Below are positions 18,325-23,782 of a stretch of DNA of 64,000 nt, piece after piece (position 1 is the stretch's first letter; each line of letters begins with the position of its first letter). The notes below the pieces were generated by a model. That model was not told the DNA's origin. It saw nothing but the letters and a program-made list of their open reading frames with translations, and did not search any database. Source of the stretch: Noviherbaspirillum sp. Root189 (GTDB lineage Bacteria; Pseudomonadota; Gammaproteobacteria; Burkholderiales; Burkholderiaceae_D); contig NZ_LMHZ01000010.1 in assembly GCF_001428545.1 (NCBI RefSeq), forward strand, positions 1 to 64,000. The letters are read 5' to 3'. The position numbers and the translations under genes are program-made.

Positions 18325-18735
18325 ATGTCCACAAACACTGCTTCTCCCATTGATGTCGCCGTTGGCATCCTCATGAAGCCGAACGGCGATGTCTTGCTTG
18401 GACAGCGCCCCCACGGGAAACCCTATGCTGGTTATTGGGAGTTTCCGGGAGGTAAAGTGGAGCCAGGCGAAGCCATCCTGGACGCGCTCAAGCGTGAACT
18501 GCGGGAAGAACTTGGCGTTCAAGTATTATCGGCAGACCCCTGGTGTGGAGTTGAGCATGTCTATCCGCATGCCCATGTCCGCCTGCACTTCTACATCAGC
18601 CGCGATTGGGAAGGCGAGCCGCAAAGCCTGGAAGACCAGGCGTTCGCATGGCAAGGGACCGTCGGTGTCGAACCTCTGCTTCCGGCAACGATCCCCTTGA
18701 TCGAGTGGCTGGATAGGCTGCGTTATCCGGCTTAA
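18325..18735 (+). CDS. mutT: Nudix hydrolase, MutT-like (8-oxo-dGTP diphosphatase)
   Basis: The 136-residue protein carries a complete Nudix box, GKVEPGEAILDALKRELREE (GX5EX7REUXEE), and the MutT-type segment GYWEFPGG. MutT removes 8-oxo-dGTP and so prevents A:T to C:G transversions. The frame is open far upstream inside the DUF815 gene, but the ATG at 18325, 10 nt after that gene's stop, gives the normal MutT length. It ends the argJ-DUF815-mutT run. Confidence 0.9.
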   Translation: MSTNTASPIDVAVGILMKPNGDVLLGQRPHGKPYAGYWEFPGGKVEPGEAILDALKRELREELGVQVLSADPWCGVEHVYPHAHVRLHFYISRDWEGEPQSLEDQAFAWQGTVGVEPLLPATIPLIEWLDRLRYPA

Positions 18736-18846
18736 TGACAGCTTTAATTCGGTCAAGACTCTGTACTCTCTGTACTAAACACAAGATTTTATCTATTGCA
18801 TGGTGGCTACTGCCGCAAGACTCGTTGTGTATTAATTTGTGTACAG

Positions 18847-18864
18847 TGTAAACATTTTATTACA
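18847..18864 (+). promoter_or_regulatory. TyrR-box-like upstream activator site
   Basis: TGTAAA-N6-ATTACA differs at one position from the TyrR box TGTAAA-N6-TTTACA. It is nested inside a 9-bp inverted repeat (18835-18869). It lies about 150 bp upstream of the -24/-12 promoter, a normal distance for a sigma-54 enhancer site. A weaker overlapping variant, TGTATT-N6-TGTACA, starts at 18828. Confidence 0.6.
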
Positions 18865-18995
18865 CAAATATAAGTCATTGATTTTAAATACAAAAATGTC
18901 TTAATATGAGAATGTGTACACAATAACATACAGCTACTAATTTCAAGTTTATTATTTGTAAACTTAAGTCCTTGATTTCATTGTTGTTTGCCATT

Positions 18996-19011
18996 TGGCA
19001 CGCATGTTGCT
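18996..19011 (+). promoter_or_regulatory. Sigma-54 (-24/-12) promoter of alr-dadA
   Basis: TGGCACGCATGTTGCT matches the RpoN consensus TGGCACG-N4-TTGCW at every fixed position, with GG (18997) and GC (19009) 10 nt apart. Transcription would begin near 19022, giving a leader of about 46 nt to the alr start at 19068. Confidence 0.88.
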
Positions 19012-19067
19012 GAATGAACGTCCAGATGGAGAAGCCTTTTGCTTCTTCCGCACACTGGAGCAGACGA

Positions 19068-20228
19068 ATGGGCGCAAGGTCCCAGCATGCGGGCGCGGTA
19101 CTCAGTATTGATCTGGGGGCAATTCAGGAAAACTACCGGATCCTCCGGCAGCGGTCCGGGCGCGCGCAGTGTGCCGCAGTACTGAAGGCAAATGCCTACG
19201 GTCTCGGTGCCGACCATGTAGCTCCGGCGCTTTCCGCTGCAGGCTGTACCCAATTTTTTGTTGCTCACCTCGATGAGGCACTCGCCCTTCGTCCGTACTT
19301 GCCCGAAACGGCTCAGATCTATGTGCTCCACGGACCGCCTGTCGGTGCCGAGATGGAATTTGTCCACCATCGGCTGATCCCGGTCCTCAACAGTGTCACG
19401 CAGATTGACGGTTGGCGCCGTACCGCAGCTACCTTGAATCATTCTGTTCGTGGCATTCTGCAAGTTGATACCGGAATGTCCAGGCTTGGGTTGGGCACAG
19501 CGGAAGTCAAGGAGCTGCTTGCCAACCCCGACAAGCTGCGTGGTATCGAGCTGCAGTATCTGATGAGTCATCTCGCTTGTGCCGAACAGACCGATCATCC
19601 AATGAATCATCGGCAGCTCTCCGCGTTCACGGCATTGCGCAAGGCGTTCCCGGCTTGCCCTGCAAGCTTTGCCAACTCCTCCGGCATTTTTCTCGGTCCC
19701 GACTATCAATTCGACCTGGTACGTCCCGGAGCAGCACTGTACGGCATTGCGCCGGTATGTGGCGCTGCCAACCCGATGATGCCGGTAGTTCGTCTGCAGG
19801 GAAGGATTATTCAAACCCGCGATATCGCTGCAGGCACCGGCGTCGGCTACGGAATAAGCTACCACGCCCAGGGGCCGCGCGCGATTGCCACTGTTGCGAT
19901 CGGCTATGCCGATGGCTGGCTCCGTGCATTCAGCAATCGCGGTTCGGTCGTTATCGGCGACACCACGGCACCTATTGTTGGCAAGGTTTCAATGGACACC
20001 TGCGCAATCGACGTAACAGGCTTGTCTCCGGCTTTGCTGCAATCCGGTGCACTGGTCGATTTCATCGGCCCGCATCAGCCGGTCGATGCAGTAGCCGCGC
20101 AAGCCGACACCATTGCCTATGAAATTCTGACCAGCCTCGGTCACCGCTACCACCGCCAGTACATCGGTGCACAGGTGCAGACAGCCACTATCAGCACATA
20201 CCTGCCAGTCAAAGAGCTGAGCATTTGA
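19068..20228 (+). CDS. alr: Alanine racemase (probably catabolic)
   Basis: This PLP enzyme interconverts L- and D-alanine. The cofactor lysine sits in [10 protein letters not shown] and the second catalytic base in the GVGYGISY segment. The usual fold-type III barrel plus beta-domain length (386 residues) is present. It is followed after 34 bp by dadA, so its likely job is to feed D-alanine to the dehydrogenase (the DadX role) rather than only to supply cell wall. Upstream ATGs at 19014 and 19026 are rejected. The first lies before the predicted sigma-54 start site, and only the ATG at 19068 has a good GGAG at 7-nt spacing. Confidence 0.93.
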
Positions 20229-20262
20229 ATCGTTACACCAATCGGATTTCGAAGGAGACATC

Positions 20263-21558
20263 GTGAAGATCATTATTTTAGGTAGCGGCGTTATAGGCAC
20301 CGCATCCGCGTATTACCTGGCGCAGGCCGGGCATGAAGTTACGGTCGTGGACCGTCAGCCGGCCGCCGCGCTGGAAACAAGCTTTGCCAATGCGGGCGAA
20401 GTCTCTCCCGGATATTCCGCACCGTGGGCCGCGCCTGGCATTCCGGTCAAGGCGCTCAAATGGCTGTTGATGCGCCATAGCCCGCTCGTAATCCAACCCA
20501 GTGTCGACCGTGACATGTGGCGTTGGGTGTTCCAGATGCTGGCAAATTGCACTACCTCCCGCTATGAAACCAACAAGGGCCGCATGGTAAGGCTTGCGGA
20601 ATACAGTCGCGACTGCCTGATCGAATTGCGGGCCGCTACCGGCATCAGTTATGACCATCGGACACAAGGCACTTTGCAACTATTCCGCACGCAGAAGCAG
20701 CTCGATGCGTCGGCACAGGACATTGCCGTTCTGCAGCAATATGGCGTGCCTTACGAAGTCCTCGATCCGGCCGGTTGCATCGGTGTCGAACCAGCCCTTG
20801 CACACGTAAAAGGAAAGTTCGTTGGCGCCTTACGCTTGCCGAACGATGAAACCGGCGACTGCTTCAAGTTTACGCAGCGTCTGGCAGAGTTGGCCGAACA
20901 AGCGGGTGTGGTGTTCAAGTACAACGTTAAAATAGAGAAATTGATTGCCGATGGCCGCAAGATCACCTCGATCAAGACCTCCACTGGCGAACTGCGGGCT
21001 GATAGCTATGTGCTCGCGCTGGGAAGTTACTCTCCGCTGCTTTTGCGCGACATTGGCATTCGCATTCCGGTCTACCCAATCAAGGGATATTCAATTACCG
21101 TACCCATCGAGAACGCTGCCGGCGCGCCAGAGTCGACCATCATGGATGAAACCTACAAGGTAGCGATTACACGTCTCGGTGATCGCATACGCGTTGGCGG
21201 TACCGCAGAGATTGCCGGTTATGACCTTACGCTGCGCAAAGCAAGGCGTGAAACGCTGGAGCATTCTGTTACCGATCTGTTTCCGCTGGGTGGCGATGTG
21301 AGCCGCGCAGAGTTCTGGGCGGGCTTGCGGCCCATGACACCGGACGGTACACCGGTGGTTGGTCCAACCCCGTATGGCAATCTTTTCCTGAACACCGGGC
21401 ATGGCACCTTGGGATGGACGATGGCGTGTGGCTCTGGCCGCCTGCTGGCCGACCTCGTTTCCGGAAGGCTTCCGGAGATCGATACGGAAGGGCTTTTCAT
21501 GAATCGCTACAGCCGTGCAAACCGTACCTTCGGCGTTCCGCAAGAGGTGCGCGCATGA
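20263..21558 (+). CDS. dadA: D-amino-acid dehydrogenase
   Basis: DadA is an FAD-dependent, membrane-associated dehydrogenase that oxidises D-alanine and other D-amino acids to 2-oxo acids, passing electrons to the respiratory chain. The 431-residue protein begins with the dinucleotide motif [21 protein letters not shown] (residues 4-24, read with one-residue breaks). It contains the family segments [19 protein letters not shown] and GLRPMTPDG, and the C-terminal [16 protein letters not shown] flavin loop. GTG start with AAGGAG 7 nt upstream. Its stop overlaps the next start (ATGA). Confidence 0.96.
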
Positions 21559-22106
21559 GCCCGCATGGCGCGGAGCAGCCCTCATCAGTGCAGGAATTCC
21601 TTTTCGGTGACGCCTTGCTGCATACACGATTTTCCATGGCGATCGATGTACTGGCGCGCCTTGTAATGGCGCATCCCCGCTCGATGACCGCCGCGGCGCT
21701 TGCCGAGGCATCCGGACAAACGGCACGAAGTGTCCGGACCTTGCTGGGCACCATGCAGGTATGTGGACTGGTTTATCCCGACGACAAGATCAAGGATGCC
21801 TGGAGTTGCCCCGCGGCGCCAGGCAGGGTCACGCTGGCCGATGTCTTTCGCAGTGTTTCGATTGCACGTCCCGATGCTGCAACAACGAAGAAAACGGAAG
21901 GGCCAAAAGATTCGTCAGACGATACCCATTCCCCTGCACGTGCCGGCGTTGACCTGTTGCTAATGCAGGCCACAATGGCAATCAATCAAGTCGTATTCCA
22001 GCATCTGCAGTCGTTTGATCTTGGCAAGCTCAAGGCGGTATCGACAGGGGGGTCTTTCCAGATGTTGAAGTCAAAGTCACGCGACTATATCCCGGAGCCG
22101 CTGTAG
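21555..22106 (+). CDS. Rrf2-like winged-helix regulator without Fe-S cysteines
   Basis: The 183-residue protein has an Rrf2-type winged helix at about residues 25-95. The segments are [17 protein letters not shown] for the helix-turn-helix and [12 protein letters not shown] for the wing/dimer helix. Family members such as IscR and NsrR bind an Fe-S cluster through three clustered cysteines after the HTH. Here only two isolated Cys are present, in CGLVYP and SCPAAP, so a cluster is unlikely. A 60-residue variable tail follows. The ATG overlaps the dadA stop, so it is co-translated with dadA and probably helps regulate it. The family call is moderate. Confidence 0.7.
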
Positions 22107-22216
22107 CCAAACTTCGGATGTGACTATTGTCGCATCCGAAGCGAGGGGATAAAGTAAATTCTCAGTCCGTCACCTTCAGGGTGGCGCACACACCTGAAAT
22201 ATTGAAACGGGAGATT

Positions 22217-23782
22217 ATGCGGATAGACGTCCAGTTCGCCGACCGCGTCGGCATCGCACATGAAATTCTCGCTGTTCTGGCCAGACGCAATATGAATGTA
22301 GTGGCTGTAGAAGTCGACTCATCAGACGTCTTTATCGACATCCCGGAGCTGACGCCGGATCTGTTACCACCTCTGCGTGAAGATTTCATGCAGGTGGCCG
22401 GTGTCGGGGGTGTCGATGTGGTTGACGTGTTGCCGGGCGCGCGCAGGCGACTTCACCTCGATACCTTGATGGCGGTGATGGCCGATCCGGTAATGGCAGT
22501 AGATGCCAGTGGCAGTATTGTCGCTGCCAATGCCGCTGCAGCCGCCGTTGCCCATCTGCCTGAAAATGACTTGCACGGCAGGACGTTGCAAGCTCTGTTC
22601 GGTGAAGCATCCCTGCATGCCGAACTTGTGAACGGAAAGTTCAATGCCCTCGCACGTGAAGTGCGGCTACACGGCGAGCCTTTTCTGCTAGAGGCGACCC
22701 CTGTATCAGAACCCGTCGACTCCAGCCTCGGCCAGACTGTCGGCGGCGTGATTACTCTGCATGCCCCACGCCGCCTCGGCGGTCGTCTGCATGCCCTCCA
22801 GCATGCGGGTGGAGGCTTTGACTCCATCATTGGAGAGTCCGAAGCAATCCGTGCACTCAAGGCGCGCGGCGCCCGCGTGGCAACGGTCGACGCGCCCTTG
22901 CTTATTACCGGAGAAACCGGGACCGGCAAAGAGTTGGTTGCGCAAGCCTGCCATGCCGCCAGCCCGCGTGCCAACGCGCCATTCCTTGCGCTCAATTGCG
23001 CTGCGTTGCCGGAAAGTCTCGCGGAAAGCGAGCTGTTCGGCTATATGTCGGGTGCCTTTACGGGTGCTGAACGAGGTGGTAAGCCCGGATTGATCGAGAT
23101 GGCGGAAGGGGGCAGCGTTTTCCTCGATGAAATCGGCGAAATGTCTCTGTATTTGCAGGCCAAATTGCTGCGTTTCCTGAACGACGGGAAATTCCGCCGA
23201 ATCGGCAGCGATCGCGAGATCAAGGTCAATGTGCGCATCATCAGCGCGACACACCGCAATCTACGCAAGATGGTGGCTGAAGGCGCGTTTCGGGAAGATC
23301 TGTTTTACCGTCTCAACGTACTGCAATTAGAAATGCCCGCACTTCGGGAACGCCCGGACGACATCCTGCTGCTTGCACGGCATTTCATTGAACGCGCCTG
23401 CACGCAGGCGCAAAAGCCGATTTGTCGGCTCAATCCCCAGGCGTGCGCGGCGCTGGTTGCCAATAGCTGGCCGGGCAATGTCCGTCAGCTGCAGAACGTG
23501 GTGTTCCGGGCAATCACCATGACGGACAAACGTATGCTGGATGTCTCGGACCTGGACCTCCCGGACCCGCACAGCAAGTTGGGCTTGATGGGCTTGACTG
23601 GGGACGTTGTACCGGCGGAGGATTGGGAGCATTCGATGGCAGGTTTCGAACGCATGCTATTGCAGAAGTTGTATCCACAATTCCCGTCGAGCCGCAAGCT
23701 CGCTCAGCGGCTCAAGACGTCGCACTCCATGATCGCGAACAAGTTGCGCAAGTACGGCATTCCGGGTCATCGAGGGGATTGA
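22217..23782 (+). CDS. TyrR/PhhR-like sigma-54-type regulator (ACT-PAS-AAA-HTH)
   Basis: The 521-residue protein has the TyrR order: ACT domain (residues 1-75), PAS (about 80-185), AAA+ domain (about 205-435) and a TyrR-type HTH at the C-terminus (SSRKLAQRLKTSHSMIANKL). Walker A is GETGTGKE (232-239). Unlike the enteric TyrR, it keeps the sigma-54 contact motif GAFTGA (279-284), so it should activate RpoN promoters. The start at 22217 follows GGGAG by 6 nt and begins the ACT strand; the frame is open to 22127. It lies 110 bp after the Rrf2-like gene. It is the likely activator of the -24/-12 promoter before alr, with an amino acid as ligand. Confidence 0.88.
   Translation: MRIDVQFADRVGIAHEILAVLARRNMNVVAVEVDSSDVFIDIPELTPDLLPPLREDFMQVAGVGGVDVVDVLPGARRRLHLDTLMAVMADPVMAVDASGSIVAANAAAAAVAHLPENDLHGRTLQALFGEASLHAELVNGKFNALAREVRLHGEPFLLEATPVSEPVDSSLGQTVGGVITLHAPRRLGGRLHALQHAGGGFDSIIGESEAIRALKARGARVATVDAPLLITGETGTGKELVAQACHAASPRANAPFLALNCAALPESLAESELFGYMSGAFTGAERGGKPGLIEMAEGGSVFLDEIGEMSLYLQAKLLRFLNDGKFRRIGSDREIKVNVRIISATHRNLRKMVAEGAFREDLFYRLNVLQLEMPALRERPDDILLLARHFIERACTQAQKPICRLNPQACAALVANSWPGNVRQLQNVVFRAITMTDKRMLDVSDLDLPDPHSKLGLMGLTGDVVPAEDWEHSMAGFERMLLQKLYPQFPSSRKLAQRLKTSHSMIANKLRKYGIPGHRGD

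Follow-up and report, generated by a model that had tools for sequence, protein, structure and literature searches.

Among the open-licence PMC papers listed for TyrR, sigma 54 (σ54) and alanine, only the one on Azospirillum brasilense (PMC6375630) is a direct case of the kind of system considered here, an alr-dadA gene cluster of Noviherbaspirillum sp. Root189 that is preceded by a -24/-12 promoter element and followed by the gene for a TyrR/GcsR-like protein. The cluster lies in the first 64,000 nucleotides of contig NZ_LMHZ01000010.1 (forward strand; "the window", to which all coordinates refer). As that paper describes it, dadA mRNA is missing in an A. brasilense tyrR mutant, which fails to grow when D-alanine is the carbon source, and the tyrR-dadA intergenic region contains three boxes and a -24/-12 element. 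Its authors use the name TyrR for the protein and single out residues for the binding of aromatics, and they note that E. coli TyrR is without the GAFTGA motif (PMC6375630). Thus, a TyrR-dependent dadA with three boxes and a -24/-12 element is already known. A second relative, GcsR of Pseudomonas aeruginosa, is reported to bind three 18-bp repeats upstream of gcvH2 in the gcs2 operon, where an RpoN site is predicted; it targets the glycine cleavage genes and responds to glycine (PMC4894688).

From its sequence, the Noviherbaspirillum cluster is very probably an RpoN-dependent operon for alanine catabolism that encodes its own activator, a protein that probably responds to alanine. This reading is drawn from a conserved promoter with three boxes and a σ54 site, a layout that recurs in the dadA promoters of Azospirillum and Azoarcus and in gcvH promoters; from the GcsR binding and the A. 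brasilense mutant as published (PMC4894688; PMC6375630); and from a swap of the served enzymes for ald, a related genome that lacks both regulator and promoter, the placement of the regulator in an alanine/glycine clade, a single rpoN gene, and a composite promoter pattern that is unique in the genome. A preliminary description of the window had proposed an amino-acid-sensing, σ54-dependent system for D-alanine catabolism, and promoter conservation, gene linkage and the contrast with that related genome (G004) all lend support to it. Likely to be new are the alanine clade, the exchange for ald and a promoter geometry in common with GcsR.

The promoter and its upstream elements

The σ54 consensus TGGCAC-N5-TTGCW is matched without mismatch by TGGCACGCATGTTGCT at 18996-19011 (plus strand), an element that the preliminary description had rated as near-perfect. 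It lies in the intergenic gap ahead of alr (18733-19013), which is 281 bp long and A+T-rich (32% GC), and by the usual spacing from a -12 element the implied transcription start would be at ~19021. No other perfect match is present in the 64-kb window; at up to two mismatches the window contains 35 matches, which is not above chance (mean 44). Genome-wide there are 23 perfect matches, versus 7 for a reversed-pattern control, and at the control rate about 0.00016-0.00032 perfect matches would be expected in the gap. The genome contains one rpoN gene.

Conservation was followed through homologues of the regulator, which are present (E≤1e-110) in 41 of the 294 genomes of the family, Root189 included, and in 6 of its 44 genera; within the genus, 12 of 15 genomes carry one at E≤1e-120. 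Family searches scored at most five candidates per genome, and phylum and class searches three. All 40 other family loci were fetched and compared; from one wider (phylum/class) search 14 of the matching places were followed, and from a separate search, loci L009-L035 of 80. The preliminary description had set loss of the -24/-12 element from orthologous loci as the observation that would count against it. The element is kept: a σ54 site (at least 10 of 12 positions) precedes the operon, or else ald or the gene for a small winged helix-turn-helix (wHTH) protein, in 39 of the 40 testable loci. In 34 of these it stands ahead of alr or dadA, in L143, L144 and L152 ahead of ald or the wHTH gene, in L153/L295 ahead of ald, and in G005 ahead of alr on a split scaffold piece. 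L150 is untestable, its contig beginning inside dadA, and L180 is negative. The scan of alr/dadA promoters left L147 (a run of N), L150 and L180 without a site of this quality and skipped L143, L144, L152 and L153, which have no alr/dadA there and were examined separately. Subtraction of 7 near-copies from the 34 leaves 27 non-redundant promoters.

These observations bear on the alternative that a σ70 promoter is the main one in growing cells, the -24/-12 element being minor or silent and the boxes serving for repression as in E. coli TyrR. The A+T-rich gap could hide weak σ70 promoters. However, a simple consensus scan of the gap found no σ70-type site, the -24/-12 element is retained as just described, and the GAFTGA motif is intact in the window regulator and in 26 of the 36 alanine-linked regulators of the tree discussed below (the other 10 differ by one letter). 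A dominant σ70 promoter is therefore judged improbable.

Three putative operator boxes of 18 bp, each with the form TGTA-N10-TACA, lie upstream of the σ54 element. Box B (TGTAAACATTTTATTACA, 18847-18864), one mismatch away from TGTAAA-N6-TTTACA, is the site that the preliminary description had recognized as a TyrR box one base off; boxes A and C had been missed. Box A (TGTATTAATTTGTGTACA, 18828-18845), the distal half of a tandem pair with B, has three mismatches to this sequence, and the promoter-proximal box C (TGTACACAATAACATACA, 18915-18932), also with three mismatches, starts 81 bp before the -24/-12 element. The 9-bp inverted repeat described earlier around box B is present (18835-18843/18861-18869), but one arm falls within box A and the other takes in the last bases of box B and five bases next to it; the repeat is thus taken to be a by-product of two tandem palindromes, and an independent operator at this position was rejected.

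At up to three mismatches, TGTAAA-N6-TTTACA is matched 9 times in the window, as expected by chance (mean 9.7), with three of the nine matches inside this one gap. When palindromes were counted without a preset motif, TGTA-N10-TACA ranked first, in 25 of the 27 non-redundant promoters (shuffle mean 0.12). A tandem A-B pair matching at least 14 of 16 positions, with a 19-bp distance imposed, is found in 25 of the 27, compared with a mean of 0.015 and a maximum of 1 in shuffles; with the spacing left free, two boxes of at least 7 of 8 are found in 24 of 27, and 25 of 26 distances between neighbouring boxes are 19 bp. All 27 promoters have a box C half-site match of at least 7 of 8 (shuffle mean 0.83, maximum 5), which starts 73-102 bp before the σ54 site. 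Boxes B and C are spaced by 77-84 bp in 21 of the 27, and by 68 in the window and in three close relatives; L160 (spacing 64) and L177 (0) are without a good A-B pair. The conserved box is close to TGTATT-N6-AATACA. Since the E. coli form, at 9 or more of 12 positions, is found in 19 of the 40 other loci, the E. coli consensus is not the conserved form.

The same geometry extends beyond the family. In two Azospirillum and one Azoarcus dadA promoters an A-B pair at 19 bp is followed by a box C 69-81 bp nearer the σ54 site. Three boxes (6-8 of 8) are present in each of seven promoters from Azospirillum, Azoarcus and alpha-proteobacteria, and six of the seven have a σ54 site; in L271 none was found within the stretch scanned. 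Among 17 named Pseudomonas loci, whose regulators are 55-59% identical, gcvH lies within 6.5 kb in 14, and 12 of 17 gcvH promoters of GcsR-like relatives have boxes A and B at 13 or more of 16, an A-B distance of 19 bp, a box C of at least 7 of 8 and a B-C distance of 80-82 bp.

An IHF-like element, TAAGTCCTTGATT, recognized by the IHF consensus, is located at 18965-18977 (minus strand), 31 bp before the σ54 site. With a relaxed pattern, chosen after the sequences had been seen, an element of this kind occurs within 70 bp of the σ54 site in 21 of the 27 promoters (shuffles 0.37); with a strict pattern it occurs in 7 of 27 (shuffles 0.165). It is positioned at -30 to -32 or at -41/-42, in some species moving with box C by roughly one turn of the helix, and it is found at -32 in 5 of 9 gcvH promoters. 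A further IHF-like sequence, TAAGTCATTGATT (18871-18883, minus strand), lies between boxes B and C within direct repeat D1. Under the relaxed pattern it has a counterpart in that position in 4 of the 27 promoters (shuffles 0.25), and thus is little conserved. The two IHF-like sequences of the gap are near-identical and lie 94 bp apart.

Could the boxes serve another factor, such as the small wHTH protein, while the σ54 activator acts elsewhere? A wHTH protein is encoded in the operon and has a homologue in 27 of the 41 loci. However, tandem boxes are retained even where no wHTH gene could be found in the interval from dadA to the regulator (L145, L148, L149, L163, L172-L176 and L178), and boxes of this kind occur in Pseudomonas, where GcsR binding has been published (PMC4894688). 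This explanation is considered very unlikely.

A wide regulon was also rejected. Only one mismatch-free copy of the tandem A-B pair is present in the genome; at up to three mismatches the pair gives 6 matches, counting both strands, versus 14 for the reversed control. A composite pattern of box C plus the σ54 site has a single match in the genome (control 0). Over 32 genomes the composite yields 18 matches, one per genome, of which 16 are at the operon by coordinates. The match in G005 is on a scaffold piece with the same nudix-promoter-alr start, interrupted by a run of N, and that in G456 is inside a gene which by eye resembles an RND transporter and is taken as chance. The other 14 genomes gave no composite match; several of them carry the operon with a box C or σ54 site that departs from the exact pattern.

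Genes of the operon and exchange of the served enzymes

The order alr, dadA, a third gene and the regulator gene, as first described, is confirmed by the open reading frames and their domains; all four are on the plus strand. For alr (alanine racemase; PF01168/PF00842 and TIGR00492, each above its cut-off) the longest reading frame begins at 19014, and the gene is placed at 19068-20228. The ATG at 19068, which is preceded by GGAG, is the likelier start, because transcription from the σ54 element would start downstream of the ATG at 19014, which could then not serve the transcript. After 34 bp follows dadA (D-amino acid dehydrogenase, 20263-21558), with 714.3 bits to NF001933 against a cut-off of 383. 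The end of dadA overlaps by 4 bases the gene for the small winged-helix protein (HTH_IclR/Rrf2-like, 21555-22106). The earlier label of Rrf2-like for this gene is weak (PF02082, 22.6 bits, below the 30 required); HTH_IclR passes instead (25.9 versus 22). A single-sequence structure prediction for the wHTH protein had a mean pLDDT of 40 and was not used. A 110-bp gap, in which neither a box (at least 6 of 8) nor a σ54 site (at least 9 of 12) was found, precedes the regulator gene (22217-23782). Elsewhere in the genome a second alr, 30% identical, lies between radA and lplT, a common position for a housekeeping alr.

Across the 41 loci the regulator is linked to dadA in 37, alr in 30, ald in 3 and the wHTH gene in 27 (L150 being cut inside dadA). 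A nudix gene lies upstream in 27, and yacG downstream in 35, of the 40 fetched stretches. In L180 (G023) the start of dadA overlaps the end of the nudix gene, and inspection by eye shows short repeats within these frames.

In two genomes, G012 (L143) and G014 (L144), ald replaces alr-dadA between the nudix and wHTH genes, behind the same three-box promoter (boxes 7-8 of 8, σ54 site 12 of 12). A third ald, in G035 (L153/L295), scores 539 bits against a cut-off of 392 and lies 3.7 kb from the regulator, again with a 12 of 12 σ54 site. Relative to the ald of L143, the copy in L144 has 95% identity and the copy in L153 has 88%. Because alr-dadA and ald both convert alanine to pyruvate, the exchange points to alanine as the regulated substrate.

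Three genomes of the genus, G004, G007 and G009, are without the regulator. G004 (L257) has a related dadA-alr pair (60% and 63% identical) with a divergent Lrp-like gene alongside (211.8 bits, cut-off 233), and the 510 bp scanned there contain no σ54 site (at least 9 of 12) and no box (at least 7 of 8). In G007 and G009 only distant dadA homologues are found (42-46%).

The regulator and its probable effector class

The product of the fourth gene is a TyrR/GcsR-like σ54 activator by its domain profiles: ACT, PAS, a σ54 AAA+ domain and HTH_50, with GAFTGA at residues 279-284. The ACT match, at 25.2 bits, is below Pfam's threshold of 27; the N-terminus has a match in 2jhe, a structure of E. coli TyrR. 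Judged by sequence, the protein has what is expected of TyrR-like σ54 enhancer-binding proteins, namely the ACT-PAS-AAA+-HTH order, GAFTGA, and a -24/-12 element with 18-bp boxes upstream. The preliminary description had called it a TyrR-type activator, and its domains, its GAFTGA motif and the type of site bear this out. Its identity as TyrR is not supported: it scores 466.9 bits to the NCBIfam TyrR model NF008085, below the cut-off of 576 (E. coli TyrR scores 1057.2), and it groups elsewhere.

A tree was built from 73 of 99 regulators, after 26 near-copies or duplicates had been excluded by list. In this tree 36 alanine-linked regulators, 13 glycine-linked ones and four unlabelled ones form one clade of 53 (support 100/99), in which the window regulator stands with GcsR-like proteins; the 6 aromatic-linked members, which include E. 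coli TyrR, are in a separate clade of 10 (support 100/100). No single branch sets apart all the alanine-linked or all the glycine-linked members (3 and 2 changes), and so the tree does not give the order in which the two linkages arose. Clean positional differences between the two groups are few (residues 14, 28, 33, 119 and 156), and no claim about the effector is based on these. No gcvH or gcvP match lies within 6.5 kb of the window regulator, which is linked to alr-dadA. Four alpha-proteobacterial proteins, 45-50% identical (L272, L273, L274 and L275, from G787, G874, G818 and G916), form a separate TyrR-like group, and none of the tested target genes was found within 6.5 kb of them.

The regulator might instead be a true TyrR or PhhR, an aromatic-amino-acid sensor that happens to control alanine genes. 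In favour are the TyrR-type domains, the HTH and the TyrR-like boxes, together with the name TyrR and the aromatic-binding residues put forward for the A. brasilense protein by its authors (PMC6375630). On the other side, the protein falls below the TyrR cut-off and outside the aromatic clade, and none of the 36 tree members with dadA, alr or ald within 6.5 kb has a phhA or hpd match in that interval. An aromatic sensor is thus unlikely. The name TyrR misleads here, and the activator appears to fit better with an alanine/glycine-type regulator, on the GcsR side.

The alanine-linked regulators probably represent a third effector class, that of alanine sensors, with one ancestral module of boxes A, B and C plus a σ54 site that is shared with GcsR and whose enzymes have been exchanged (alr-dadA, dadA alone, or ald). 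As such they offer a test case in which a regulator family may change its ligand (aromatic, glycine or alanine) yet keep one promoter layout, and in which the served enzymes change but promoter and activator are kept. This suggests that genes annotated as "TyrR" in such bacteria may regulate the use of alanine or glycine, not of aromatic amino acids. A brief comparative study of the alanine clade, of the exchange for ald and of the layout in common with GcsR would seem worthwhile.

Proposed mechanism and comparison with known systems

Dimers of the regulator would occupy the tandem boxes A and B as well as box C, nearer the promoter. Bending of the DNA at the IHF-like element that separates box C from the promoter may bring the AAA+ ring and its GAFTGA loop to σ54 RNA polymerase, and ATP hydrolysis would open the promoter at 18996-19011. 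The genes alr, dadA, wHTH and the activator gene are presumably transcribed together, which would create positive feedback. Alr would convert L-alanine to D-alanine, which DadA would oxidise to pyruvate and ammonia. Alanine, in its L or D form, is the most likely effector and may be sensed by the N-terminal ACT-PAS region.

Several observations weigh against an alanine-responsive operon of this kind. The radA-linked alr is nearer to the NCBIfam DadX model than the operon alr (495.6 versus 184.5 bits, both below the cut-off of 600), and the genome contains three further dadA homologues (39-45%). L180 keeps dadA and the regulator without a recognizable promoter. In G038 (L152) a three-box σ54 promoter precedes only the wHTH and regulator genes, and no linked alr, dadA or ald is present in the fetched stretch. 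The tandem boxes of G035 are more than 300 bp before the σ54 site, and no good box C was found there. Six Azospirillum, Azoarcus and alpha-proteobacterial promoters that have a σ54 site gave no IHF-like match. Five of the 17 gcvH promoters (L011, L017, L020, L022 and L267) miss the box thresholds, and gcvH σ54 sites score only 9-11 of 12. Finally, a Thauera regulator groups with that of Azoarcus yet adjoins an AGCS transporter gene, so that a target cannot be read from the clade alone.

Among known systems, PhhR and E. coli TyrR have domain order and box type in common with the window regulator; unlike it, they have aromatic targets, and the phhA-linked relatives and E. coli TyrR, with 38-44% identity to it, form a separate clade. 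Control of dadAX by the Lrp-type DadR uses another regulator family, without σ54, for the same enzymes, an arrangement that the dadA-alr pair and Lrp-like gene of G004 resemble. DVU0569-ald of Desulfovibrio vulgaris is similar by description in that a σ54 activator lies near ald, with σ54 promoters and a conserved motif upstream of ald; the main text of that paper makes no mention of TyrR or an ACT domain (PMC4641369).

A close relative is TyrR-dadA of A. brasilense Sp7, where a σ54-type TyrR-like activator is linked to dadA with three boxes and a -24/-12 element. However, tyrR and dadA are divergent there, whereas alr-dadA-wHTH-regulator form one co-directional cluster in the window; the main text of the A. 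brasilense paper does not mention alanine racemase (PMC6375630). The homologues of A. lipoferum and B510, compared in place of Sp7 itself, are 63% identical and have the same box layout; in both, and in Azoarcus KH32C (58%), the regulator is divergent from dadA, and the KH32C locus adds ridA, a permease gene and alr. GcsR, lastly, shares its domain architecture with the window regulator, to which gcv-linked Pseudomonas relatives are 55-58% identical; whereas GcsR targets glycine cleavage genes and responds to glycine (PMC4894688), the window regulator is linked to alr-dadA.

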